A stretch of DNA of 64,000 nucleotides, from positions 7,750,001 through 7,814,000 of the forward strand of contig NZ_CP109460.1 of NCBI RefSeq assembly GCF_036227565.1, read 5' to 3'. This DNA is from Streptomyces sp. NBC_01454. Its GTDB lineage: Bacteria > Actinomycetota > Actinomycetes > Streptomycetales > Streptomycetaceae. The notes beneath the pieces are model-generated. The model was not told the DNA's origin and ran no database searches. It worked only from the letters and a program-made list of their open reading frames with translations. Shown in pieces: positions 50,841 to 64,000 of the stretch; the stretch's first letter is position 1; each line of letters begins with the position of its first letter. The translations under genes were made by a program, and so were the position numbers.

Positions 50841-51001
50841 CCACGTGTCAGTGGTGGGGAACACGCATACAAGGGCGGCTGCCCGCGGGCCGGCTACCAG
50901 CCCCGATTCCCCGGCGGCAGATCTTCGGGGAGCCCGTATGTGCCATCCGATGCCGTGTGCCTGTCCCACTGCTGGTGGCACAGGCGCTTAAATATCGGAG
51001 T

Positions 51002-51259
51002 GTGACTAGAGAACCGCAGCGCTTCACGATCTTGTTGGTCCCCGAACATGTGGAGGACAGAGGCGGTGCCTCCGTGGAGGACTCAGCCGTGCGATCGGCG
51101 GTCGTCGAGGCGACAGGCGATATGGGCGCCTCGGGCTACCCCCGCTACGTCGGGCACGGGATCGTGGCCGACATCGACCCCAGCACGCGTACGGTCGAGG
51201 CGTTGCTCGTCGATGGTGCAGAGCTGGACTATGGGCTGACCGCCAGGGTCACCTCCTGA
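51002..51259 (+). CDS. Small hypothetical protein
   Basis: An 85-residue soluble protein: VTREPQRFTILLVPEHVEDR, AVRSAVVEATGDMGASGYPR, YVGHGIVADIDPSTRTVEAL, DYGLTARVTS. Regular strand/helix alternation and good codon bias. GTG start with GGAG very close. Reminiscent of short proteins near mobile or stress genes, but no family recognised. Confidence 0.55.
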   Translation: MTREPQRFTILLVPEHVEDRGGASVEDSAVRSAVVEATGDMGASGYPRYVGHGIVADIDPSTRTVEALLVDGAELDYGLTARVTS

Positions 51260-51831
51260 TCGTGGTGTCGTGCGCAAGCGGCCAGTCGTGACAGCGGGGC
51301 GCATCGAGCGGTCAGGGCTGTGGACGGCTCCGAGGGAAGCGGCGGACCAGTGCGGGGGCTCTATATGCCCAGCCGCCAAGCCGCCCAGGCGGACGTGCTC
51401 GCGCCGGCCGCCAGTTCCGTCGCGACCAAGGACCGGCAGGCAGAGCATGGCGTACCGGAGCAGCGCCGGCCGAGAGTGGCCGGATCGGCCTCATCGGCAT
51501 GGTGGGTGGCTTGTGGACCTGTGGGCGTGCGCGCATGCTCAGGCCGTATGAGAGCGCTCCCGAGGGGCGGGTGCGGAACAGGGGGGTGCCGCGCGATCCA
51601 TCGCGTGGAGCGGCCGTCCTGGTCGCCAGGGCGGTGGGGCGGTGGGGGGCAGTACGGAGCGCGTCAGCGCCGCACCGCAGGTGCGAGGACAGGTAAAGGC
51701 ATTCTGCCATAGAGCATTTCTTTCAAGACAATTGCGGAAGTATCCCCTTCATGTGTATCGCGAATCCTGTGGACTGATCGCCGGTTTTGTGCCGCGAGCA
51801 GTGTGGGACGGCCGGCGATCGGGAGGGGCTC
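51260..51831. other. Upstream region of the thiopeptide regulator
   Basis: About 570 bp with no convincing gene; Arg/Pro-rich frames only. From about 51710 the sequence is less G/C-rich (TTTCTTTCAAGACAATTGCGG), as expected of a promoter for the LuxR gene. Confidence 0.45.
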
Positions 51832-54702
51832 ATGGCGCTCGGGGAGATCGGCCGCGGGAGCGAGACGGCGCGGCTCCGTGCCGTGCTTGAACAGTCCCGT
51901 AGGCGTCGCGGCGCGGACCTGACGGTCATCCGTGGCGAGCCGGGAGCGGGGAAGTCGGCGCTGCTGGACGCGTTCGGAGAGGAAGCCTCCGCGGTCGGGT
52001 ACCGCGTGGCCGCGGTACGCGGGACAGGGCCGGGGGAGCGCCCGTATGCGGCGGTCCATCGGCTCATCGGCCAGTTACGGGCCGGGGACGGCCCATTCGT
52101 CGTGGATCAGCACTGCCCACCGGACGGTGACCCTGTCCAGGGGTGGGCTGCCGCGGTGCGGACAGGGAGGGATGCCCCCATCGCCCTGTGCGTGGACGAC
52201 GTGGCCCGTGTCGACAGCTGGTCGCTCCGATGGCTGCTGGATCTGTCCCGGACAGTGCCGCCGGTACCACTGGCCATCGTGCTCACGGACCGGACCTTCG
52301 GCACCGGGGCCAGGGCTGTCTCCGCCCTTATGAAGGGCATCTCCCACGCGCCCGGCTCCGTACTCCTCACCGCGGCCGAGCCCGTCGATATGCCGGGGCT
52401 GCGCACGGAGGATCTGCCCGAAGCGGCCGCCGCACGGTCTCGGGTCGTGCTCGACGCCCGGACCGCCGCGGTGTGCGGCGACCTCACCGGAGGTAATCCC
52501 GCCCTCCTGCATGCCTTGCTGGCACCGCACTCCGACAGTGCGCCCACGGAGGACGCCCTCCGCGCCACCGCGGCATCCGGTGTCCTGACGGGAGCCGACC
52601 GGTGGCTGGCACCGCTTGGCGCGCCCGCCCTGGACCTGGCGCGGGCGGTCGCCGTGCTCGGTGGCGGCGCCGAGGTCGCGGTCAGCGCTGAACTGGCACA
52701 CCTCACGGTTGAGGAGGCGCTCGCGGCCGTCGATCAACTCGTCGACGCCTGTGTGCTCGCCAACCGCACGCCGCTGGCCTTTCGCCACCCGCTCCTGGAG
52801 GCGATGGTTCTCGGCAGCATCGCCGCCGGCACCCGAACCGCCCTGCATCTGCGGGCAGCTGCCCTGCTGCGCGACCGACAGGCCGAAGCCACCTCCGTCG
52901 CCCACCACCTGCTCGCCGCCGGCCCCGTGGGAGAGGAATGGGCGAAGCGCTGCCTGCGGCTGGCCGCCCGCCAGCTGGAGCGGGAGGGCAGGCCGCACGA
53001 CGCGGCACGGTACCGGCGCTGCGTCCTTCGCGAACCCCTCGGTCCGCAGGAGAAGTTGACCATTCGCCGGGAACTCGCCGAGCTGTACGCCGTCATCGAC
53101 CCCGAGCGGGCCGTGCACCTGTTGGACGCCGCCCGCTGCGAGTCCCATCCCCCCGGCATCGTCGTGGAGTACGCGCTGGCGCTGGCGGCCGTGCTGGACG
53201 GGTGTGGCCGGTCCGAGGACGCCGTCACCGTCCTCGACGACGCCGCCGCCCGGCTCGGACGCACACCGGGCGACGGCTCCTGGCAACTGCGGCTACGCCT
53301 GCACAAGGCTTTTGTCTGCCGGCGTGCCCCGCTGTGGCTGGCACGGGCCGCCGATCCGCTGGGCAATCTGAGCTGCCAGGCCCCCCACCGGGGCGTCGCC
53401 GGCCGGGAACTCGCGGCGCTGCGCGCGGTCCGTGCGGTCGACGCCGGCGCCGACCGGGGAGCGGCAGCCCGCTACGCCCGGCAGGGCTTGCCCCGGGGCG
53501 AGGGGTGCGGTGCGGCCACCCTGCTGTGGCACACCTGCGGCGCGCTGGTGGCGGCCGGTGACGTCGCCGAGGCGTGGACACACTGCGGCCGCGGGCGCCA
53601 GGTCTCCGGTGTCCGAGCCGGCCGCTTGGAGCAGGTCACGTTGGCACTGGTGCGCGCGACGGTGCTGCGGGCCCGAGGTGACCTCTATGCCGCCGACGCC
53701 ACCCTGACCCCCATGGCTGACCGCCTGCTTTCCTTCGCAGCCGCCGGGCACCCCTTGGCCGTGATCGGTGTGGCGGCCCTGGCCGAGGTACGGGCCCTGC
53801 GGGGCGCGACGGACTCGGCGCGTTCCCTGCTCGCCGAGAGCAGGCTGGACCGGCACCAGCTGCCCTGGCGGCGGGACTCGGCGTACGCCCTGGCCGCGCG
53901 GGCCGCGGTCCACGAGAGCGACGATCCCGGCCGCGCTGTGGAGGACCTGTTCGCGGCGGGGCGCCTCCTGGACGAGGCCGGGGTGCGCAACCCCGCGGTG
54001 CTCCCTTGGCGCTCCCGTGCCGCTCGGGTCCTCGCGGCGTGCGGGGAACGCGAAGAGGCCGCCGCACTCGCGGGAGCCGAGCTGACGGACGCCCGCCGCT
54101 GGGGCACCCCGGAATCCGTCGGCACCGCGCTGCACGCCCTGGCACTCAGCGAGACCGGGGAGCAGCGCATCAGTGTGCTCGCAGAGGCGGCCAGGACGCT
54201 CGCCCGGTCCTCGGACCGTATGCAACATGCCGTGGTGCAGGCGGCCTTGGGGGCGGAGCTTTCCGCGGCCGGCCGGGCGGAGGCGGCGCGCGCCGAGTTG
54301 CTCCCGGCCCTCCAGCTCGCCCATGCCTGTGGTGCCGATCCGCTGGCGCACCGCATCCAGAGGGCCCTGGGGCCGCTCCGGGCAAGGTGCCTGGAAGCCT
54401 TCGCCGCCTCCGGGGCGCTCCCGGCCACTCCCTGCCCCCGCTCGGCCGGTGAGGTGGCGCCCGCCGCGCCCCCGGTGCCCGCAGGTCACGCCGCCGCGCA
54501 CGCCGCCCATCCGCTCCTGAAGAGCCTGACGCCCCAGGAACGGAAGATCCTTCACCTGGCCCGGGACGGATACTCCAACCGTGACATCGCGGGCCGGCTG
54601 TTCGTCGCCGTCCGCACCGTCGAATTCCATCTCTCCGGGGCGTACCGCAAGTTGGGCATCGCCGGCCGCCGCCAGCTCGCGGAGGTGTTCAGCGCCGGCT
54701 GA
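51832..54702 (+). CDS. LAL-type LuxR-family regulator of the thiopeptide cluster
   Basis: A 956-residue large ATP-binding LuxR regulator. Walker A GEPGAGKSALL (K41), Walker B-like ALCVDDVARVD, a long tetratricopeptide-like helical middle, and a C-terminal GerE-type HTH: LTPQERKILHLARDGYSNRD, IAGRLFVAVRTVEFHLSGAY, RKLGIAGRRQLAE. GGGAGGGG precedes the ATG. It is convergent with the cluster (25 bp between stops), so it is a probable pathway activator by position. Signal unknown. Confidence 0.9.
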   Translation: MALGEIGRGSETARLRAVLEQSRRRRGADLTVIRGEPGAGKSALLDAFGEEASAVGYRVAAVRGTGPGERPYAAVHRLIGQLRAGDGPFVVDQHCPPDGDPVQGWAAAVRTGRDAPIALCVDDVARVDSWSLRWLLDLSRTVPPVPLAIVLTDRTFGTGARAVSALMKGISHAPGSVLLTAAEPVDMPGLRTEDLPEAAAARSRVVLDARTAAVCGDLTGGNPALLHALLAPHSDSAPTEDALRATAASGVLTGADRWLAPLGAPALDLARAVAVLGGGAEVAVSAELAHLTVEEALAAVDQLVDACVLANRTPLAFRHPLLEAMVLGSIAAGTRTALHLRAAALLRDRQAEATSVAHHLLAAGPVGEEWAKRCLRLAARQLEREGRPHDAARYRRCVLREPLGPQEKLTIRRELAELYAVIDPERAVHLLDAARCESHPPGIVVEYALALAAVLDGCGRSEDAVTVLDDAAARLGRTPGDGSWQLRLRLHKAFVCRRAPLWLARAADPLGNLSCQAPHRGVAGRELAALRAVRAVDAGADRGAAARYARQGLPRGEGCGAATLLWHTCGALVAAGDVAEAWTHCGRGRQVSGVRAGRLEQVTLALVRATVLRARGDLYAADATLTPMADRLLSFAAAGHPLAVIGVAALAEVRALRGATDSARSLLAESRLDRHQLPWRRDSAYALAARAAVHESDDPGRAVEDLFAAGRLLDEAGVRNPAVLPWRSRAARVLAACGEREEAAALAGAELTDARRWGTPESVGTALHALALSETGEQRISVLAEAARTLARSSDRMQHAVVQAALGAELSAAGRAEAARAELLPALQLAHACGADPLAHRIQRALGPLRARCLEAFAASGALPATPCPRSAGEVAPAAPPVPAGHAAAHAAHPLLKSLTPQERKILHLARDGYSNRDIAGRLFVAVRTVEFHLSGAYRKLGIAGRRQLAEVFSAG

Positions 54703-54727
54703 CCACGGACCCGGAGCGGCGCGGGCC

Positions 54728-55915
54728 CTATCGCGTTCCCTCCGCCCACTCGGCGCCGATCCGCCGCCAGCTGGGCTCCTCCCGCCCGTCCGGTGCGGCG
54801 ACGTATCTCTCGAAGCTGGCGATGGCCGAGGTGCCGTGCACCGACTCCACGGTCCGCGCCGCCAGGTGGCACAGCAGACCGCGGTCCATGGGCGCCAGTC
54901 CCAGCCGGTTGAGGTGGAGGTAGAGGTAGTTCATGGCCAGGCGGAACGAGGCGAACCAGGCGTCGTCGACGAGGAAGTCCTGGTGCCCGTGGTCGGACAA
55001 CAGGAGCGTGTGGAACTCGCTGAGCTGCCGGGTCGGCATGCGCGGAGCCACCGCCGCCCCGCCCATCGACACCTCGCCCGAGGCGAGCAGTGGCTGGGCG
55101 ATGCGCTGGTGGCGATGCACGGCCCGCGCCCACTCCCGTACGAATGCCACCCCGGAGCCCGTGGCGTCGGTGCCGTCCGACTCCGCGAGGGCCGCCTCCA
55201 CCTCCCGCAACCGTGCGCTCAAGGCGGCTTCCTGCCGGCGGAACCGCTCGTCGAAGCGGGTGCGGTAGGCCGCTGGATCGTTCGTGCGGGACAGAAAGGC
55301 GTCCGCGTGCGAGCGCAGCGACAGCACCCCCCTCTCGATCGGGGCCCCGCCGGCCTCGAACGGGATCGCCGCCGCGGCCGCCGTGGTCCACATCAGGTCC
55401 AGGGCCAGCACGGATAGGGGAGCGGTGCGCAGCTGCTCGTACATCCGGAACACGAGGTCGGTCGTGTCGGAGAGGAAGCCGGCCAGCAGCTCGCTCGCGC
55501 GGAGTGAGCCGAGCACCTGCAGGCGGTGGTCATACGGGCGCTCCACGACCGTGTTGTCCGCCACCCACGGACGGAGCGGCCCGGGCTCCATCTCCAGCTC
55601 CGCGAGCCGCTCGTGCACGGGCGCTAGCGCGGCCTCGTCCAGTGCGACGGTGGACGGGCGCACCCGTAGGTGGTCCGTGAGCACCCTTCGCACCACGGGG
55701 CGCACCTGCTCACACCACGCTGTCTCGTCCGTAAGGAAGTTGAGGCGCAGGTGGGGGCCGCGCAGCCAGTGCCGGCCGAACCAGCAGTCACGCACCCAGG
55801 GCCGCACCGCGGCGAACGCGGGACGTACCGCCTCAAGGATCAGTTCCGGCTCCGCGGCCTCGTCGTGGTGGTGGACGTGCAGGCTGTGCCAGGACGCCTC
55901 GACGGCCCCGGTCAT
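54728..55915 (-). CDS. Thiopeptide biosynthesis protein, candidate pyridine synthase
   Basis: A 395-residue protein of the SpaB_C/thiopeptide type: SWHSLHVHHHDEAAEPELIL at the start, RHWLRGPHLRLNFLTDE (the family's G-P-H-x-R-x block), and EFHTLLLSDHGHQD later. Thiopeptide clusters carry two such proteins, one removing glutamyl groups (TbtC-type) and one forming the central pyridine by aza-cycloaddition (TbtD-type). The RHWLRGPH variant and last position favour the pyridine synthase for this one, an inference. Coupled by 4-nt overlap to its neighbour. Confidence 0.75.
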   Translation of the reverse strand: MTGAVEASWHSLHVHHHDEAAEPELILEAVRPAFAAVRPWVRDCWFGRHWLRGPHLRLNFLTDETAWCEQVRPVVRRVLTDHLRVRPSTVALDEAALAPVHERLAELEMEPGPLRPWVADNTVVERPYDHRLQVLGSLRASELLAGFLSDTTDLVFRMYEQLRTAPLSVLALDLMWTTAAAAAIPFEAGGAPIERGVLSLRSHADAFLSRTNDPAAYRTRFDERFRRQEAALSARLREVEAALAESDGTDATGSGVAFVREWARAVHRHQRIAQPLLASGEVSMGGAAVAPRMPTRQLSEFHTLLLSDHGHQDFLVDDAWFASFRLAMNYLYLHLNRLGLAPMDRGLLCHLAARTVESVHGTSAIASFERYVAAPDGREEPSWRRIGAEWAEGTR

Positions 55916-56943
55916 GCGACGCCCTGCGCCTCGGGCAGTTCGGCCAGCACCCGCCCCACCAGGAACCGCAACTGGTTCTCCTGCCACAGGGTCAGCCCGA
56001 GCCGGTTGTTCACCAGGTGGGCGCAGCGCAACAGCACCAGGCTGGTGGCCGGGTGCGCGGTCGCCGGCAGGTCCAGCGGATCCGCCAGCGGAGAGGCCGC
56101 CCAGTCGGCGGCGAACTCGCCGGACTCCTCCATGCGGTGCAGCGCGTCGCGCAGGTGCCGCACCGATGCGAGCCAGTATCCGCGCTGGCCGGTTCCGGCC
56201 GGTTCGGCGGCGAGCTCCCAGGTGCGCCGGGCGCGCGCGTGCAGCTGCTCGCGCTGGAGCCGGTAGCGCGGTTCGACGTCGGCCGCCTCGGGGCCGCTCC
56301 CGAACGGCAGCGGCGGACCACCGTGCTGCGCCCACCGCTCGCGGATCTCGTCGCACAGCGCGAACACGCCCACCACCAGGTCGAACGCCAGCAGCGCCCG
56401 CTGCTCCACGGTGGTGCCCGCCCTGATCACCGACAGCGCCAGCCGGCTCGACTCGCAGAAGTGCCGCTCCACGGCGGCGATGGCGGCGCCGTGGCCGTAG
56501 TCGGCGTGCTCGCGTGCGTACGGCAGGAACTCCACGGTGTTGTTGGCCCGCACCACGGCGTCGTGTCCGGCGCGGCCCTCCAGCCCGGCCAGTCCCTGCG
56601 CGACCTGCGCGAAGTGGGAGCGGTCCACCACGTCCGGAGCGGGTGACAGCGCGAGGAACGCGCTCAGGCCCCGCTCCATCGCTTCCGCGACTTCGGCGCG
56701 GTCGCCGGCGCGGGCGGGGAGCAGGCGCAGGCGCACATGGGGGCCGCCCTCCCAGTAGCGCAGGAAGAAGTACCGCTGGATCAGTCCGTGTTTCTCCAGC
56801 TCCGCCACCAACGGCTGCACGCAGCGGGTCAGGAGCGCGTCCTGGTCGGTGTCGTAGAAGACGTGGGCGCACACCCAGTCCTCCGACCGCGCGGTCGCCG
56901 GATCCGGGCGAAGGCCGTCGCCATGTCCGTTCGTCATGCTCAT
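55912..56943 (-). CDS. Thiopeptide SpaB_C-type protein, candidate elimination enzyme
   Basis: A 343-residue SpaB_C-domain protein: DWVCAHVFYDTDQDALLTRC, YFFLRYWEGGPHVRLRLLPA, typical of the LanB elimination domain that converts glutamylated Ser/Thr to dehydroamino acids. In class I lanthipeptide enzymes this domain is fused to the LanB N-part; here it is a separate gene, as in thiopeptide clusters. Overlaps the split LanB gene by 4 nt (ATGA) and the following gene by 4 nt. Confidence 0.82.
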   Translation of the reverse strand: MSMTNGHGDGLRPDPATARSEDWVCAHVFYDTDQDALLTRCVQPLVAELEKHGLIQRYFFLRYWEGGPHVRLRLLPARAGDRAEVAEAMERGLSAFLALSPAPDVVDRSHFAQVAQGLAGLEGRAGHDAVVRANNTVEFLPYAREHADYGHGAAIAAVERHFCESSRLALSVIRAGTTVEQRALLAFDLVVGVFALCDEIRERWAQHGGPPLPFGSGPEAADVEPRYRLQREQLHARARRTWELAAEPAGTGQRGYWLASVRHLRDALHRMEESGEFAADWAASPLADPLDLPATAHPATSLVLLRCAHLVNNRLGLTLWQENQLRFLVGRVLAELPEAQGVA

Positions 56944-59561
56944 CGTGTCCGTCCTTCGTTGATCTCGACGAGGAATTCGGTCACCCGGGGCCCGCTGTCT
57001 CCGTAGTCCGGCATCTGCGAGGGGCCGGGCCGGGCCTCCTGGAGGAAGAGCACCTGACCCGCACCGGCGGCGAGCAGCCGCTCGAAGACCCCGACCAGCA
57101 GCAGCTGGGCGAAGTCCACGTAGAGCGGCTTGCGGGACTTGACCCGCCACACGTCCCCGCTGACCACCGACCGAGGGTCCAAGGCGCGGACGAAGCAGCG
57201 CTGCGGCATCCCGTGCTCTGCCAGCCACCCGGCGAGCCGCAACAGCAGGGACCGGTCGCTCTCACCCTTCGCCCGCCGCGGTATGGCGTCGGGTGGCAGC
57301 ACCCACTGCCGGCGGCTGACCGTCGTATGGCCCACGACCACCCGCGGCTCCGCCAGGACCTCCCGCACCTCGGCGAGGGAGGGGTCGCCGAACATCCGTC
57401 GTCCCGGGATCAGCAGATTGGACGTGGCGCCGAAGGTCTGCATCAGCAGGCGCAGCGCCGGCGGCAGCCACAGCTCCGCGATCAGGTTCGGGTGCACCGG
57501 CCGCAGCTCGCCGGCGTGCCCGCGGGCGTGCAGGGTCAGCAGGCCGAGTGCGGGGTCGTGCCGCACATACAGGTCCCCCAGGGGGATGCGGTGTTCCGGG
57601 TCGCGCAGGCTGCGCCCTCCGGGGTACTCGATCTCTGCGGCCACGGCGGACGCGCGCAGGCCCACGTTGCTTCCGAAGTGGCGGCAGGTGTCGGCGTGGA
57701 GGACGCCGGCAGGCGGGAGGGCGGTGTCCACGGCCGCGTCCCGCGACGTGCCGAGGCCCGCCTGGGTGAGCAGCCGCCCGATACGGTCACGCCCCCGGCC
57801 GTGCCCGGAGTTGACGGCGTTGACCACGAACTCGGGCACGGAGCCGGTGCCGAGGGGCTGGCCGTAGTACGCCACGGAGTCCGGCGCCCGCATCCACGCG
57901 GGCCGGCGCCCGGCCACCGCGAGGAGCCGCTCGGGGGCGATCCGTGCCACACCGTGCGCATCGGCCGGCGCGGCGCGGACCACCTCGCACAATTCGTCCC
58001 GCAGTGACGCCAGCTCGCCCAGCCGTGGGAGCCGATGCTCGTGCATCGTCCGGTAGCCGTGCACGGCGACGGAGAGCAGGGCGGGCAGCGCGGGGTCCTC
58101 GCGCAGCCACGTCTGGACCTGCCGGTGAAAGGTCAGGAACGGCACTGTCTCCCCGGCCCCGACCCGCTCGGCGAACAGGTCGGCGAGCGTGACCCGGCCG
58201 GGCAGGGCCGGGTCGAGCACGGCGTAGCAGTGCCGCAGGGCGTCCAGATCTCTCAGGACCGGTTGCCACGCGCCTCGGTCCGGTCCGGGAAGGGGCGCCG
58301 CCAGCAGGGCGTTCTCGATGACGCTGTTCTTGGCGGGCAGACTGATGCGATCGGCGCCGAGCAGGTCCCTGATCCGTCGTAGCGTGCCCTCGACGGCCTC
58401 GATGGCACGCACTCGTTGCGCCGGATCCGTCATCTCCGGGTAGCCCGACAGCGTTCCGGCGATCACGGCGAGTTCCCGCTCGACCCCGACGAGCTCCGGG
58501 CTCGACGCGCCGGCCAGCCATGCACGCAGGTCGGCGACGTGATCGAGGCTCTGGTCGGCGAAGGGCCGCTCGGCCTCCAGCAGCCCCAGCTCCTCCAGGC
58601 GCGCCAGGTACGCGGCGGCTGCTGCCGGTTCGCTGCCGGTGCGGCGCGCGACGGACCGGGCCGCCTCCTCGCGGGTGGGGCGGCCCTCGCGCACCACCTC
58701 CACGCACACCCGTACCGCAGCCGCCTCGGGCAGCGTCCGGAGCGGCTCCTCGGCCCCCGCCCCCAGGAACTGCCAGCCACCCTCGGTGCGCAGGGCGCCG
58801 GGGTTGAGACGCAGCCTGCAGCGCCCGGCGAGTTCGGGATGGCTTTCGAGTCTGCGGACGATCTGCTGGACGACCCATACGTTCAGCTCGGCGACCGTAC
58901 GCACCTCCGGACCGGTGGTGGACGCGCTGCTCCGTGCACCGTCGCTCCAGGTACCCAGGCCGCTCGCGGTGAACGTGCTGAACGGGCTGGTCTTCATGGT
59001 CACCCGCCCGAGGTACTTCGCGAGCCGCAGCGCCAGCGAGCGTTCCGGTGCCCGCTCGTCGGGGTGCGCGAGCCATTTGCGAACCTCGGCGAGGAGCACC
59101 GGACTGCTCAGGACGAGGCCGTGCTGGAACCCGGGATCTGCTGCCGCTTTGCGCAGCAGTGTGTGCTGGGTGCGCAGGTGGTGGCCGATCAGGTCGTCGA
59201 GTCGGGCCAGCGCCTCCTGATGGCCGGCGCGCAGCCGCGCCCAGGTGTCCACCCGGGCGACGATGGCGTGGGGCAGCAGCGCACGAACGGCGTCGTTCCA
59301 GTGGCGCTCGGCGAGCGGGCGGCGGTTGTGGATGGCCCGCCGCACGGCCACCAGGAGCGGCTTGCCGGAACCGGCCCGCCCGATCTGCTGGTAAAGGAGG
59401 TCGGACAACTCGGCCGCCAGGCAGTCCAGTTGGCGTTCCGTGTCGCGTACGGTCTCGACCTGGCGCCACAGCTCCGGCGAGCGCATGTCATCCAGCGTGT
59501 TCGCGGGCAGCCCGCCGATCCGTACGCCGAAGGCGTCCGATGGTGAGAACTCATCGGTCAT
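56940..59561 (-). CDS. Lantibiotic dehydratase N-part (glutamyl transfer), split LanB
   Basis: An 873-residue LanB-N protein without the C-terminal elimination domain, which is encoded separately. It shows PLLVAVRRAIHNRRPLAERH, RLAKYLGRVTMKTSPFSTFT (the LanB TSPF signature) and SVIENALLAAPLPGPDRGAW. In thiopeptide pathways (TbtB-type) it transfers glutamate from tRNA-Glu to Ser/Thr of the precursor. Ribosome site weak but present. Second gene after the cyclodehydratase in the co-directional run. Confidence 0.88.
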   Translation of the reverse strand: MTDEFSPSDAFGVRIGGLPANTLDDMRSPELWRQVETVRDTERQLDCLAAELSDLLYQQIGRAGSGKPLLVAVRRAIHNRRPLAERHWNDAVRALLPHAIVARVDTWARLRAGHQEALARLDDLIGHHLRTQHTLLRKAAADPGFQHGLVLSSPVLLAEVRKWLAHPDERAPERSLALRLAKYLGRVTMKTSPFSTFTASGLGTWSDGARSSASTTGPEVRTVAELNVWVVQQIVRRLESHPELAGRCRLRLNPGALRTEGGWQFLGAGAEEPLRTLPEAAAVRVCVEVVREGRPTREEAARSVARRTGSEPAAAAAYLARLEELGLLEAERPFADQSLDHVADLRAWLAGASSPELVGVERELAVIAGTLSGYPEMTDPAQRVRAIEAVEGTLRRIRDLLGADRISLPAKNSVIENALLAAPLPGPDRGAWQPVLRDLDALRHCYAVLDPALPGRVTLADLFAERVGAGETVPFLTFHRQVQTWLREDPALPALLSVAVHGYRTMHEHRLPRLGELASLRDELCEVVRAAPADAHGVARIAPERLLAVAGRRPAWMRAPDSVAYYGQPLGTGSVPEFVVNAVNSGHGRGRDRIGRLLTQAGLGTSRDAAVDTALPPAGVLHADTCRHFGSNVGLRASAVAAEIEYPGGRSLRDPEHRIPLGDLYVRHDPALGLLTLHARGHAGELRPVHPNLIAELWLPPALRLLMQTFGATSNLLIPGRRMFGDPSLAEVREVLAEPRVVVGHTTVSRRQWVLPPDAIPRRAKGESDRSLLLRLAGWLAEHGMPQRCFVRALDPRSVVSGDVWRVKSRKPLYVDFAQLLLVGVFERLLAAGAGQVLFLQEARPGPSQMPDYGDSGPRVTEFLVEINEGRTR

Positions 59562-59614
59562 GGCCGACTCCAGTCACGGAAGGTGCGGAAATGCGGGGCG
59601 TGGGCACGGCGACG

Positions 59615-61642
59615 TCACGGGAACGGGTGCGGGTGCGAATTGATCTCCTCCTCGGCCAGGGGCGCCGCACGATGGCCGAGTTCTGCGGGCAGCCGCAGCA
59701 GCCGGGGCAGCCCGTGGGTGCGGCGCATCCGGTGCCCGAACGTCATCGGCAGCAGCCCCGGCACGATCACCTTCGCGCAGGCCAGCCCGCCTGCCCGGTG
59801 CTCATCGGTGGTCTGGTCGACCACGACCACGTCCAGACCCCGATCGGTGAACCGGGCCACCGCCTCGGCCAGGTCGTCGCGCATGTCCTGGTGACGTGGC
59901 CGGCAGGTGGCGTGCGCGAACGCCTCCTCGACGGGCAGGCCGCCCGTCTCGGCGTCACCGCCGTCGCCGAGCAGGAAGGCGAAGCGGCCGAACGCGGCCG
60001 GGTGGCAGTACAGCAGCGCATGGTCCCGCATCTCGCGCACCAGGCCCGGATCGTCGACCATCGCCGCGATGCGGTCGCGCTCCTCGCGGAAGGCCGACCG
60101 GTTCCATCCCAGATTCGCCGTGAGCTCCAACAGCCCGTTCATCAGGGCGCGCTCGGGATCGAAGTGCGCGCCCGCGGCGCAGACCGCGGCGGGCTCGTCG
60201 TGCCGGCCCGCATCGCCGGGGCGCACGGCCATCACCCAGGCCGTCGGGATGCCGTGGTCAGGGGTGGTGGCGAAGGCCAGCACCCGGTGACCGCTGTCCT
60301 GGCGGATGCGCTCGGTGAGCGCACCGACGCAGGGGTCCGACACCGACCGCAGGTCCACCCGCGGTGCGGGGAGGCGGGCGTACCAGGTCAGCAGGAACGC
60401 GTCCCGCTCGGCGAGTTCCACCAGTCCGTGCAGCGCCGCCTCTTCCAGGCAGCCGCCCAGCGCACACCCGTTGGACACCTCGTACGCCAGGGGCCTGGCC
60501 GCCGGATTGTCGTGCCGGGTGCGGTAGTACGCGTAGTCCTCCGGAACGAGGACGGGGGCATCGCGGGCGAAGGAGTGTCCCCACACCCAGTTGAGCACCA
60601 GGTCCGGAGCGTACGGCGGATAGGGGAAGCCCGGCTCGGCGTACCGCTCCGGTGGGTACAGTCCCAGGTCGAGCGGGCACAGCGCCCGGTCGGCCACCTC
60701 CGCGTAACCGGCCCGCACCGTCGTGCGCCGCCCGCCGGGCCGGGCCCCGCCCAGCCGCTCCAGTGCCTCCGCCAGCGCGGTGCGGGCGCAGGCCCCGTAG
60801 CCCAGGTCGCGTCCGAACCCGGCCTCCTGCTCGCCGCCCGGCAGGTGCAACGGGGCGGAGACCATGGGGTAGGGGTAGTCGGTGCGCACGTCGAGCTGCC
60901 GGACCAGCCCCGTGCGCCCGTCGACGTACCGGGCGACCAGTCCGTCCCAGCCGGCCCGCAGGTCGCGCACACGGGGCACGTCCCGGTCGGGTTTGGGGCG
61001 GGGCCATTCCATGAGGACGGGCGGCCGGTCCTCGGGGAGCCCGCCGCACCAGGGGCACGCCGGGTCGGGCAGGAACGGATGCACGCCGACGGCGAGGGTC
61101 GTCAGCGACAGGAAGACGAGGGCATTGTCGGTCAACCTCCCGGTGGCGGCGCCCAGTTCGCTCGCCACGAGCGTGGCGGCCGTTTCGCACGACCAGGTGG
61201 TGAGGACCGGCGACGCACGCTCGGCGAGCCGTTCGCCGTGGCGCTGCAGGAGAGCCGAGCGCGGGCTGTCCTTGCCCAAGGCCCGATGCCGGCGCGTCCG
61301 GGCACATCGGGCGCATCCGGTCCGGCCCGGAACGGTGGTCGGGCCGACCACGAGCTGGCCGAGCTCGACCCGTACCGGCAGCCAGCGGATGTCGGCGCGC
61401 GGCGGCTCGGTCGCGGTCACCCAGTGATCCTCGGCCGTGACGACCGCCTCGCAGGCGAGGGCCTCCTCCGGTACCAGCCGACTGGTACGGGACAGGGCGG
61501 TGCGGATCGTCGCGGCGAGGACGCCCTCGCCGACGACCGCGACGCGGGCCGCGGGGGCCGTCGTCGCGTCACCGGAGCGCGCCGGGAGCGGTGCGGGCGG
61601 CCGTCCGGTGCGGGGGGCTGTCACTGCGTCGGTCAACGTCAC
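59615..61642 (-). CDS. YcaO cyclodehydratase with E1-like N-terminus
   Basis: A 675-residue protein. N-part: AARVAVVGEGVLAATI and a zinc tetrad C110-x2-C113 and C196-x2-C199 (CARC, CPWC) as in E1-like partners of TOMM enzymes. From about 290 on it is YcaO: RTALAEALERLGGARPGGRR, LVELAERDAFLLTWYA, EERDRIAAMVDD, and a Pro-rich C-terminus HPHPFP like the PxPxP end important for YcaO activity. It makes thiazolines/oxazolines from Cys/Ser/Thr using ATP. Follows the precursor gene after a hairpin. Confidence 0.88.
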   Translation of the reverse strand: MTLTDAVTAPRTGRPPAPLPARSGDATTAPAARVAVVGEGVLAATIRTALSRTSRLVPEEALACEAVVTAEDHWVTATEPPRADIRWLPVRVELGQLVVGPTTVPGRTGCARCARTRRHRALGKDSPRSALLQRHGERLAERASPVLTTWSCETAATLVASELGAATGRLTDNALVFLSLTTLAVGVHPFLPDPACPWCGGLPEDRPPVLMEWPRPKPDRDVPRVRDLRAGWDGLVARYVDGRTGLVRQLDVRTDYPYPMVSAPLHLPGGEQEAGFGRDLGYGACARTALAEALERLGGARPGGRRTTVRAGYAEVADRALCPLDLGLYPPERYAEPGFPYPPYAPDLVLNWVWGHSFARDAPVLVPEDYAYYRTRHDNPAARPLAYEVSNGCALGGCLEEAALHGLVELAERDAFLLTWYARLPAPRVDLRSVSDPCVGALTERIRQDSGHRVLAFATTPDHGIPTAWVMAVRPGDAGRHDEPAAVCAAGAHFDPERALMNGLLELTANLGWNRSAFREERDRIAAMVDDPGLVREMRDHALLYCHPAAFGRFAFLLGDGGDAETGGLPVEEAFAHATCRPRHQDMRDDLAEAVARFTDRGLDVVVVDQTTDEHRAGGLACAKVIVPGLLPMTFGHRMRRTHGLPRLLRLPAELGHRAAPLAEEEINSHPHPFP

Positions 61643-61662
61643 GTCCTCGTCATCGCCGGGAT

Positions 61663-61698
61663 GCCGTGTTCGGCGGGCCAGGGCCCGCCGAACACGGC
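61663..61698 (-). terminator. Hairpin between precursor and YcaO genes
   Basis: A 15-17 bp perfect G/C-rich stem (GCCGTGTTCGGCGGGCC and complement), 17 nt after the precursor stop. A partial terminator here would let the precursor be made in excess over the enzymes, common in RiPP operons. Confidence 0.75.
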
Positions 61699-61714
61699 TG
61701 TGCTGGTGCTCGAT

Positions 61715-61897
61715 TCAGCAGCAGCAGCAGGAACAGCAGCTCGCCGGGGTCCCGGTGGAGGTGCAGTTGGATGCGCCGATCTCGACCATGGCGTGGCCCA
61801 CGTTCACGGTCTCCAGGCTCGCGCCCGGCGAGGCCGGCAGGATGTCCAGGTCGTCCACACTCAGGTCGGCGAGGTCGAGGACGAGGTCGTCGTTCAT
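61715..61897 (-). CDS. Thiopeptide precursor peptide
   Basis: A 60-residue precursor. Leader (1-42): MNDDLVLDLADLSVDDLDIL, PASPGASLETVNVGHAMVEIGA, with the acidic/hydrophobic pattern and the VGHAMVEIGA end that parallels the thiopeptide VESLTAGHGMTEVGA. Core (43-60): SNCTSTGTPASCCSCCCC. Cys for thiazoles, Ser/Thr for dehydration, and the CCSC block as in GE2270/thiomuracin are all present; the four terminal Cys are unusual. AAGGGGGA is 7 nt before the ATG. Cleavage after Ala42 is inferred from the family. Confidence 0.85.
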   Translation of the reverse strand: MNDDLVLDLADLSVDDLDILPASPGASLETVNVGHAMVEIGASNCTSTGTPASCCSCCCC

Positions 61898-62076
61898 CGC
61901 ATTCCCCCTTCTTCTTGGATGGGTGAGAGTTGGGCCAGTCACTGGTCCCTCCGCATCCTGCGGCGCGTGGACGTCCGGCGTCTTCACGGTCCGACCGCAG
62001 GACGGCCGTGGCCTGAGCCGCGGTCGCAGCCCGTAGGACGCCCGTAGGTCCGGCCCACCAGGTACCGCAGGGCGGC

Positions 62077-63699
62077 TCACCAGATCAGCTGCGGCTCGTA
62101 CTGGGCGGTGGGGCGACGCCTGCCCATGACGAGCGTGAAGACGGGCACGTGGGCGGCGCTCACTCCGATCAGGTCCCTGACCATCGCGTCGTGGTAGCCG
62201 TTGGTGACCCGTACGGACAGCCCGGCCGCGGCAGCGAGCACACTGACCCGCTGGGCGACGATCCCCGCCTCCTGGTGCAGGATGCGGTACCCCCGAGCCC
62301 CGAACCACCGGTCCCCGGCCAGCCGGTGGGCGGTGAGGAACACGAGGGCGTCCGCCTTCGCCGAGTTCACCGCGGGCGTGCGATCGCACAGCATGTCGAC
62401 CACGGCGCGCCAGTCCCGCTCCGGCAGCCGCACCAGCGCGGGTGATCCCGCGCCGGCCGTCAGCCGGTACAGCCCGGGGCGGATCCCGTCCACACCGAGG
62501 ATCAGCACGTAGGCGTCCACCAGGGGGCGGCACGGCGCCTCGGTGTGGTCCGAGGACACGGGCTCCAGCACGTACCGCAAGGCGGCCGCCAGCCGGCCGG
62601 CGGCCAAGGGGCGGGCGGCCGGCAGGAACATCCGCCCTCCCGAGTCGCGGGCGCGCAGCGCCGCGGACAGCTCCACGCCGCCGGGACCGGGCTCCGGCAG
62701 CGCGAGCGCAAGGGCACCGTCCGGGTCCGGTGCCCGGGCAGGCAGCGGAAAGCTGTCGGGGTCGATGGCCGGGCCGGGGCCGGTGAGCCGGGCGGCGAGG
62801 TCGAGCGTGGTCAACCCGGACCAGGTGCGGGAGGGGGAGCGGTTGGTCCGTACGTGGGGAGGGTCAAGGACGGGCAACGCGCAAGTGGGAAGGGGAGTAT
62901 GGCGCGCCGGGGCAGGCAGTGGCTCCGCGTCTCCGGCCGGGGCCAGGTCGATCACCGCGAACGCCGTCTCCTCCCTGCCGTCGAGCCCCAGCGCACGGTT
63001 GACCACGGCGTCGTCGAAGCGGTGGTGCACCCGCCCGCGCAGCCCGAGCGCGGCTCCGGTCAACAGCGCGTTCCCGACCGTCATCCCGGCTTCCTGTGCG
63101 CACAGCCGATACGCGTAGTCCCGGTAACGGAAGGCGGTCTTGCGAAACCATGCGGACACCACCAGGAGTCCGCGGTCCGCCCGTACCCCCGCGGCAGCGC
63201 GTACGGCGTCCGGTACGCCGCCCTCTCGCAACCGAGTCAGCGAGTGGTGCGCCGGGTGGTAGTGATAGCACCCGGCGGGCAGCTCGCCCGCCGGACGGGC
63301 CAGCCACACATACAGCTCCACGGGATGGAAGCAGCGCGCGGACGCCACCATCCGGTGGTACGGCCACACCGCATGCGGACCGAGCTCGATCCGGCCGACC
63401 CCGTACGTCCAGTACAGCAGGGCGGAGAGCGTGCGGAGGTCCAGGGCGCCGAGGCCGGGGGTCTCATGGGGGTGAGCGGCGCGGAACGCCTCGAAGGACC
63501 AGCGCGCGTCCCCGATCCGTCGCGCCGGCTCGGGCAGGACGTGGCGGGGCAGCCCACGGTATGTCTTGACCGGCAGCGGGTCGTCCGCGCCGCCCTCCTC
63601 ACCGTGCCCCTCGGCGAAGAGGTCCTGGACCCCTTCGAACGTCCGCCACCAGAACCGCAGGCCGACAGAGCTCCGCAGGTCGTCGGCGACGCTAGTCAA
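62077..63699 (-). CDS. SagB-type nitroreductase-like dehydrogenase
   Basis: A 540-residue FMN dehydrogenase with two nitroreductase-like halves: SALLYWTYGVGRIELGPHAV and WPYHRMVASARCFHPVELYV in the first, MFLPAARPLAAGRLAAALRY and YRILHQEAGIVAQRVSVLAA in the second. It oxidises azolines to thiazoles/oxazoles. TTG start overlaps the stop of the preceding gene by 8 nt; no other start with family sequence exists. 179 bp separates it from the precursor, probably holding the precursor promoter. Confidence 0.85.
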   Translation of the reverse strand: MTSVADDLRSSVGLRFWWRTFEGVQDLFAEGHGEEGGADDPLPVKTYRGLPRHVLPEPARRIGDARWSFEAFRAAHPHETPGLGALDLRTLSALLYWTYGVGRIELGPHAVWPYHRMVASARCFHPVELYVWLARPAGELPAGCYHYHPAHHSLTRLREGGVPDAVRAAAGVRADRGLLVVSAWFRKTAFRYRDYAYRLCAQEAGMTVGNALLTGAALGLRGRVHHRFDDAVVNRALGLDGREETAFAVIDLAPAGDAEPLPAPARHTPLPTCALPVLDPPHVRTNRSPSRTWSGLTTLDLAARLTGPGPAIDPDSFPLPARAPDPDGALALALPEPGPGGVELSAALRARDSGGRMFLPAARPLAAGRLAAALRYVLEPVSSDHTEAPCRPLVDAYVLILGVDGIRPGLYRLTAGAGSPALVRLPERDWRAVVDMLCDRTPAVNSAKADALVFLTAHRLAGDRWFGARGYRILHQEAGIVAQRVSVLAAAAGLSVRVTNGYHDAMVRDLIGVSAAHVPVFTLVMGRRRPTAQYEPQLIW

Positions 63700-64000
63700 G
63701 GGCCCGCACCGCCGCCCGCGGCCCAGCTGCCGCCGCTGCCTCACCTGCCTCGTCGGCGAGGACGACGCGCACCAGGAAGGGCAGCACCTCGTACACCGCC
63801 GGATCGTGATCGAGCGGTACCACGAGCGGACGCCTTCCCCGCGAGCGCAGGGCCGTGACCATGCGTGCGTCTCCCGCCGGCTCCGCCCGCCCGAGGTGCC
63901 GCCCGCCCGGGGCAGGGGCGTGCAGCTTCCCCAACTGGACCGGTGCATAGGCCGGTTCGTTCGTCATCACCGACTGCCGGTCGAGCAAGGCCGCACGGAG
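63692..64000 (-). CDS. Thiopeptide-cluster protein of unknown type, 5' end probably outside window
   Basis: The visible 90-100 residues (MTNEPAYAPVQLGKLHAPAP, GDARMVTALRSRGRRPLVVP, DHDPAVYEVLPFLVRVVLAD) have no clear family. The pattern RPLVVPLDHDP...LPFLVRVVL faintly recalls the end of YcaO-like or E1-like proteins. The frame is open to the window edge and neither ATG 63967 nor TTG 63988 has a ribosome site, so it is probably the C-terminal end of a larger gene such as a TOMM leader-binding protein. Confidence 0.5.
   Translation of the reverse strand, partial: LRAALLDRQSVMTNEPAYAPVQLGKLHAPAPGGRHLGRAEPAGDARMVTALRSRGRRPLVVPLDHDPAVYEVLPFLVRVVLADEAGEAAAAAGPRAAVRALD

Follow-up and report, generated by a model that had tools for sequence, protein, structure and literature searches.

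A Probable Cyclothiazomycin Gene Cluster in Streptomyces sp. NBC_01454, with a Conserved Hairpin behind the Precursor Gene

The Precursor Gene and Its Neighbors

The window analyzed here, a stretch of 64,000 nucleotides, corresponds to positions 7,750,001-7,814,000 of an 8.36-Mb contig in the 9.46-Mb genome of Streptomyces sp. NBC_01454, in which the search for the precursor returned a single match. This gene, of the cyclothiazomycin precursor (cltA) type, lies at 61715..61897 on the minus strand, and consists of a single open reading frame (ORF) of 60 codons plus the stop, with AAGGGGG directly upstream of the ATG. Its complete translation, MNDDLVLDLADLSVDDLDILPASPGASLETVNVGHAMVEIGASNCTSTGTPASCCSCCCC, is divided into a leader of 42 residues, MNDDLVLDLADLSVDDLDILPASPGASLETVNVGHAMVEIGA, and a core of 18 residues, SNCTSTGTPASCCSCCCC, with the boundary being taken from a preliminary description of the locus and from knowledge of the family. 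That description, which named no strand, had placed the precursor of a thiopeptide, with a core of 18 residues, at these positions. The observation is confirmed, in that a 60-residue frame is present on the minus strand, within a thiopeptide gene cluster. The plus-strand reading of the same positions is an unrelated frame, and was rejected.

The leader resembles the NCBIfam model thiazolyl_GetA (NF033399), which covers the thiomuracin/GE37468 precursors, with an E-value of 1.1e-5 and 25.3 bits, under the cut-off of 29, and Pfam returned no match for the precursor.

The genes around the precursor are named here after their Tbt counterparts by a presumed analogy, except where a family name provides the assignment. 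On one side, all on the minus strand, there is a pyridine synthase of the TbtD/PbtD family (54728..55915), which passes the curated cut-off of NF045556 (410 versus 325 bits), followed by the TbtC-like C-terminal (elimination) part of a LanB-type dehydratase (55912..56946, start approximate; PF14028, E 1.2e-43; TIGR03891, 86 bits, cut-off 48.45), the TbtB-like N-terminal (glutamylation) part of the dehydratase (56940..59561; PF04738, E 9.8e-29, with no NCBIfam match), and a TbtG-like YcaO cyclodehydratase with an N-terminal TOMM leader-binding domain (59615..61642; YcaO, E 1.5e-78; TIGR03604, 352 bits; TIGR03882, 114.3 bits). On the other side, also on the minus strand, there is a SagB-type azoline dehydrogenase (62077..63696, start approximate; PF00881 and TIGR03605, 130.6 bits, each matching two nitroreductase stretches) and the 3' part of a gene for a ThiF-like leader-binding protein (63692..64000; TIGR03693, 160.1 bits, below the cut-off of 561.9), which extends beyond the end of the window in an ORF that reaches 65785, with its true start probably near 65665. 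A regulator of the LuxR family (AAA + HTH; 51832..54702, start approximate) is encoded on the plus strand, convergent to the cluster. A thiopeptide cluster is recognized by a C-terminal core rich in Ser, Cys, and Thr beside a YcaO protein, a split LanB dehydratase, a dehydrogenase, and a pyridine synthase, and all of these are found here.

Past the end of the window, the ThiF-like gene is adjoined by an M1-family peptidase and a Pls/PosA-type NRPS (L013, 1923-7728). As these neighbors are otherwise found only in Streptomyces kronopolitis (L003) among the ten loci compared, they are probably external to the cluster.

Conservation of the Precursor and the Gene Set

The protein search recovered six precursors, and the genome scan at least four named precursor loci. 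Among 392 sampled genomes of the genus, seven contained a match to the precursor, including the genome of the window and one weak match. When 396 genomes were sampled across the phylum, the precursor alignment matched only the window's own genome, with up to 16 candidates scored per genome among the matches listed. A profile search with this alignment added eight further, more distant proteins, none of which (0/8) contains the core SNCTSTGTPASCCSCCCC.

Fifteen precursors were read for the variation of the core, that is, the 13 rows of the alignment (window included) together with L002 and L005, leaving aside L018 (genome G051), which is taken as a repeat of P0007, with which its protein agrees, and the weak match L011, which has another core. 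The exact core is present in nine of the 15, including S. lydicus, S. kronopolitis, and S. olivaceoviridis, while Arg6 is found in five, and one, from Lentzea sp. E54, differs more. The invariant core columns of the 13-row alignment are Ser1, Asn2, Cys3, Thr4, Ser5, Pro9, Ala10, Ser11, Cys12, Cys13, Ser14, and the last four Cys, and in the 14 precursors read from Streptomyces, the core varies at position 6 alone (Thr or Arg).

At the codon level, the window differs from nine relatives by 41 synonymous and 3 non-synonymous changes in the core, with all three of the latter being Thr6 to Arg, and by 54 synonymous and 62 non-synonymous changes in the leader, all of these counts being pairwise sums of events that are not independent. 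Given this ratio of 41 to 3 in the core codons, the precursor gene is real. A chance ORF was considered and rejected, as both the codon pattern and the synteny speak against it, as does the identity of all 60 residues in S. lydicus NRRL ISP-5461 (L002), where the gene has four nucleotide differences, each of them synonymous.

The precursor, the six modifying enzymes, and the LuxR regulator form a set of eight genes that are syntenic in eight of ten loci (L002, L003, L004, and L014-L018), with the LuxR gene of L017, which is cut at the end of the stretch, being found in the wider comparison of the flanks. The short contig L005 carries five of the eight genes, one of them partial, and the same genome has a pyridine synthase on a different contig, while L019 represents a different thiopeptide-like cluster. 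The simple scan of 61500-62200, which covers few of the Streptomyces promoter types, found no sigma-70-type promoter, as might be the case in a silent or degenerate cluster that yields no product, but this reading is very improbable, given the eight open frames, the core codon changes, almost all of them synonymous, and the complete synteny.

The flanks of eight genomes (the window and seven others, with G008, L005, and G060 left out) were compared over approximately 13-22 kb on each side. Here, and in two other gene-calling steps of the analysis, the genes were called by a simple filter on GC3, with a minimum of 70 aa in the flanks and of 55 and 80 aa in the other two steps, and because ORFs that fail the filter are dropped, small genes may be missed. 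The LuxR gene recurs in all seven of the other genomes, and the other shared families are found in at most three of the eight. Twelve of the 14 flank families that include the window also have a member in S. kronopolitis (G393), and these lie to either side of the cluster, which therefore probably occupies the same chromosomal site in the two genomes. Judging by the cluster and the flanking genes, the Streptomyces sp. of the window appears to be a near relative of S. lydicus and S. kronopolitis. The flanks of S. olivaceoviridis have only the LuxR gene and one 116-aa ORF in common with the other seven genomes, and this ORF, which looks like a transposase, resembles a 403-aa ORF found on the other side of the cluster in G390.

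Relationship to Cyclothiazomycin

The search with the pyridine synthase, in which 7,996 candidates were scored, recovered 61 proteins, of which 37 align over 96-100% of the query at 55-97% identity, one is a fragment with 70% identity over 55% of it, and 23 have no more than 43% identity. One relative, SHJG_8832 of S. hygroscopicus subsp. jinggangensis 5008, is 68% identical to the pyridine synthase of the window, and 395 of 397 residues of the S. olivaceoviridis enzyme (L004) are identical to it. In S. olivaceoviridis, the gene of this enzyme adjoins a precursor with the exact core SNCTSTGTPASCCSCCCC. The jingsimycin cluster of strain 5008, near the right end of the chromosome, is reported to be identical to that of cyclothiazomycin in S. 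hygroscopicus 10-22 (PMC3424136), and SHJG_8832 would belong to this cluster, judging by the family it falls into and by a high locus number.

The probable identity of the core to that of the producers 10-22 and 5008 is deduced by way of S. olivaceoviridis as a proxy. With this proviso, the window would share with their clt cluster the core, the six framework enzymes, the gene order and orientation, and the element composition of the product, whereas the proxy differs from the window in the degree of identity of the enzymes (62-73%) and the LuxR protein (49%), and has no flanking gene in common with it. The locus is thus very probably that of the precursor of a complete cyclothiazomycin cluster, with cyclothiazomycin itself (the Thr-6 form, "A") as the most likely product. 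The preliminary description had found no match for the core among the cores it knew, a list from which cyclothiazomycin was missing, and its claim of novelty does not survive: the core is most likely that of this already-known antibiotic, a bicyclic thiopeptide. An identical core in a characterized cluster, which it had named as the finding that would overturn its view, was encountered at one remove, in the precursor that lies beside the near-identical homolog of SHJG_8832. The compound is known, rather than a discovery, and other Streptomyces share the core, which makes the find an ordinary one.

Several published findings bear on this assignment. The description of cyclothiazomycin dates from 1991 (Aoki et al., cited in PMC3917276), and the compound derives from an 18-residue peptide (PMC8249576). 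Its pyridine is tri-substituted, and its tail is linked back to the molecule to close a second ring (PMC3917276). In Streptomyces strain GS93-23, the known cyclothiazomycin pathway was assigned under a rule that required all the biosynthetic genes of the characterized cluster (PMC6923854). The full core string was not found in the literature searched, and three pieces of it were absent among the literature matches listed. A thiopeptide cluster of S. lydicus 103 (3,985,339-4,037,579) was scored at no more than 38% similarity to that of cyclothiazomycin (PMC5357945), and the precursor of genome G137, which is taken to be that strain, lies within these limits, at 4,027,411. The value of 38% speaks against a simple identity of the whole clusters, and presumably counts the flanking genes.

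The Arg6 loci (S. mobaraensis, S. huiliensis, G390, and two NPDC strains) share 17 of the 18 core residues with the window, and have Arg6 where the window has Thr6. Cyclothiazomycin B1 is presumably this Arg form, and the eight genes are present in those loci of this type whose contigs permit this to be verified (L017 and L018). Both cyclothiazomycin B1 and C clusters have been assigned in S. huiliensis (PMC8600237).

The TbtA-type thiopeptides thiomuracin, GE2270, and GE37468 have enzymes of related families and a related leader, although NF033399 remains below its cut-off here. Compared with their cores, that of the window has Asn2, not Cys2, after Ser1, Ala10 before the second Ser, and a second ring in the expected product.

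Ring Chemistry and Proposed Pathway

The linear core has the composition C59H99N19O27S7. When Ser1 and Ser11 form the pyridine, one nitrogen stays on the leader amide and three waters are lost, by element arithmetic. A further loss of 10 H2O and 3 H2 results in C59H64N18O14S7 (computed [M+H]+ 1473.297), which we take to be the formula of cyclothiazomycin, and to which the numbers of water and H2 were fitted, with the C, N, and S counts not being free. For the Arg6 form, the same pattern of losses leads to C61H69N21O13S7, which was absent among the literature matches listed. In the literature searched, the string C59H64N18O14S7 was found only in PMC1851972, which prints it with no compound name.

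The position of the second pyridine serine may be deduced from cyclothiazomycin B1, whose pyridine bears a 1-amidoalkyl substituent at its position 2 (PMC4734400). Such a group needs a residue like Ala10, not an azole, before the second Ser, and the core contains Ala10-Ser11, that is, an Ala before the second pyridine Ser, as required for a 2-(1-amidoethyl)pyridine. By this analogy, we infer that the second serine is Ser11, and that Ser14 is unlikely, so that of the two options left by the preliminary description, the 29-membered ring of Ser1 and Ser11 appears to be the right one. This ring size agrees with that of GE2270.

If the pyridine were instead closed at Ser14, as in a novel thiopeptide with an enlarged ring, the product would have the same total mass as with Ser11, and Ser14 does lie between Cys residues, as in GE2270 and thiomuracin. 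Such a product would, however, have a group derived from Cys13 at C2, rather than the 1-amidoalkyl of cyclothiazomycin (PMC4734400), and a ring exceeding the sizes listed in the preliminary description, and the core is most likely that of cyclothiazomycin, all of which makes this closure extremely unlikely.

One core Cys would form the tertiary thioether that closes the second ring. If six Cys form rings, about half of these rings would stay thiazolines, because the presumed formula leaves only three oxidations. The run of thiazoles that had been expected from the C-terminal CCCC would thus be correct only in part.

The gene, the cluster, the enzyme families, the identical cores, and the element arithmetic are shown directly by the analysis, and every reaction, ring assignment, and product proposed here is modeled on known thiopeptide pathways. 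The ThiF-like protein and the YcaO enzyme would bind the leader and cyclize Cys to thiazolines, about three of which would be oxidized to thiazoles by the SagB enzyme, and the split LanB pair would dehydrate Ser and Thr by glutamylation and subsequent elimination. The TbtD-like enzyme would then join the alkenes of Ser1 and Ser11 with the carbonyl carbon of Ala10 to form the pyridine, a step that would close the 29-membered ring and expel the leader. Finally, the C-terminal Cys would add to a dehydrobutyrine, forming the second ring.

The Second Ring and the Shared Genes

The clt cluster of strain 10-22 is reported to comprise 15 ORFs in 22.7 kb, with cltBCDEFG forming the framework and cltMN being proposed for the thioether, and the six framework genes presumably correspond to the six enzymes in the window. 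As for the further ORFs of the 22.7-kb set (cltH-O), the only gene conserved nearby is LuxR, with no others being recognizable as conserved. A variant product might be considered on these grounds, that is, a monocyclic cyclothiazomycin that lacks the thioether since the tailoring genes of strain 10-22 are missing here, an idea also in line with the lack of any flank gene besides LuxR in more than three of the eight genomes. This variant is nevertheless improbable. The role of cltMN was itself a hypothesis, and a review that cites the 2010 cluster paper describes the C-S bond of cyclothiazomycin as forming non-enzymatically (PMC9784856). Furthermore, the core is identical, and S. olivaceoviridis, whose pyridine synthase is near-identical to that of strain 5008, shares only LuxR and the 116-aa ORF with the other genomes.

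As the eight genes alone are common to the loci compared, the comparison suggests, indirectly, that no enzyme is dedicated to closing the second ring, a suggestion that covers the neighborhood of the cluster, with an enzyme encoded elsewhere in the genome being possible. The comparison defines the gene set common to the clt-type loci examined, and the formation of the thioether can now be tested by expressing these shared genes alone.

A Conserved Hairpin between the Precursor and YcaO Genes

Between the stop of the precursor and the start of the YcaO gene, at 61663..61698 on the minus strand, there is a perfect inverted repeat of 17 bp with a 2-nt spacer, which folds as 16 pairs. The 72 nt around it have a folding energy of -42.3 kcal/mol (z -5.8), a value reached by none of 200 shuffles. 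A strong stem follows the precursor in all ten loci examined (window included), although the predicted helix is shorter in L003 and L017. In the ten-locus alignment, 98.8% of the 160 cells are paired, and this pairing drops to 35-42% when the partner is slid by 1-3 columns, a contrast favored by the choice of the stem from the window's own fold. Double-sided changes are found in five of the 16 pairs (shuffle mean 1.9; as high in 1 of 500 shuffles), while the number of further pair types is less striking (as high in 25 of 500). The scan of 61500-62200 found no classical terminator, and no Rfam family reached the threshold within 51000-64000.

The hairpin, which covaries across the ten loci, is likely to be a transcription attenuator between the precursor and the enzymes, and it could instead be a 3' stabilizer of the precursor message; it probably causes the precursor message to outnumber that of the enzymes. 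The combined proposal, in which the second ring forms with no dedicated enzyme (spontaneously or in a framework enzyme), the extra genes of the 22.7-kb set are dispensable, and the hairpin sets the ratio of peptide to enzyme, is given an even chance of being correct.

Related Precursors

Outside Streptomyces, Lentzea sp. E54 encodes a cyclothiazomycin-like precursor (P0008) with the core SNCTSTSSPASCCSCCCC, in which Gly7-Thr8 is replaced by Ser-Ser, and a pyridine synthase (P0045) that is 55% identical to that of the window. Its product may possibly be a new analog of cyclothiazomycin.

Five small proteins (P0070-P0074), from metagenomes and other sources as well as from Rhizocola hellebori, and known here from the proteins alone, have leaders that resemble those of thiopeptides and end in G(A/G)S. 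Their middles are hydrophobic, and their tails are of the CSCCCCC type, with that of P0073 being CSCCCCGSCG. With P0074 as the query against 396 sampled genomes of the phylum, the single match was the precursor of the window itself. Finally, genome G060 (L011/L019) contains a thiopeptide-type precursor with the core SCCCSTSSCSCST, which adjoins distant YcaO, SagB, LanB, TbtC-like, and ThiF-like genes.
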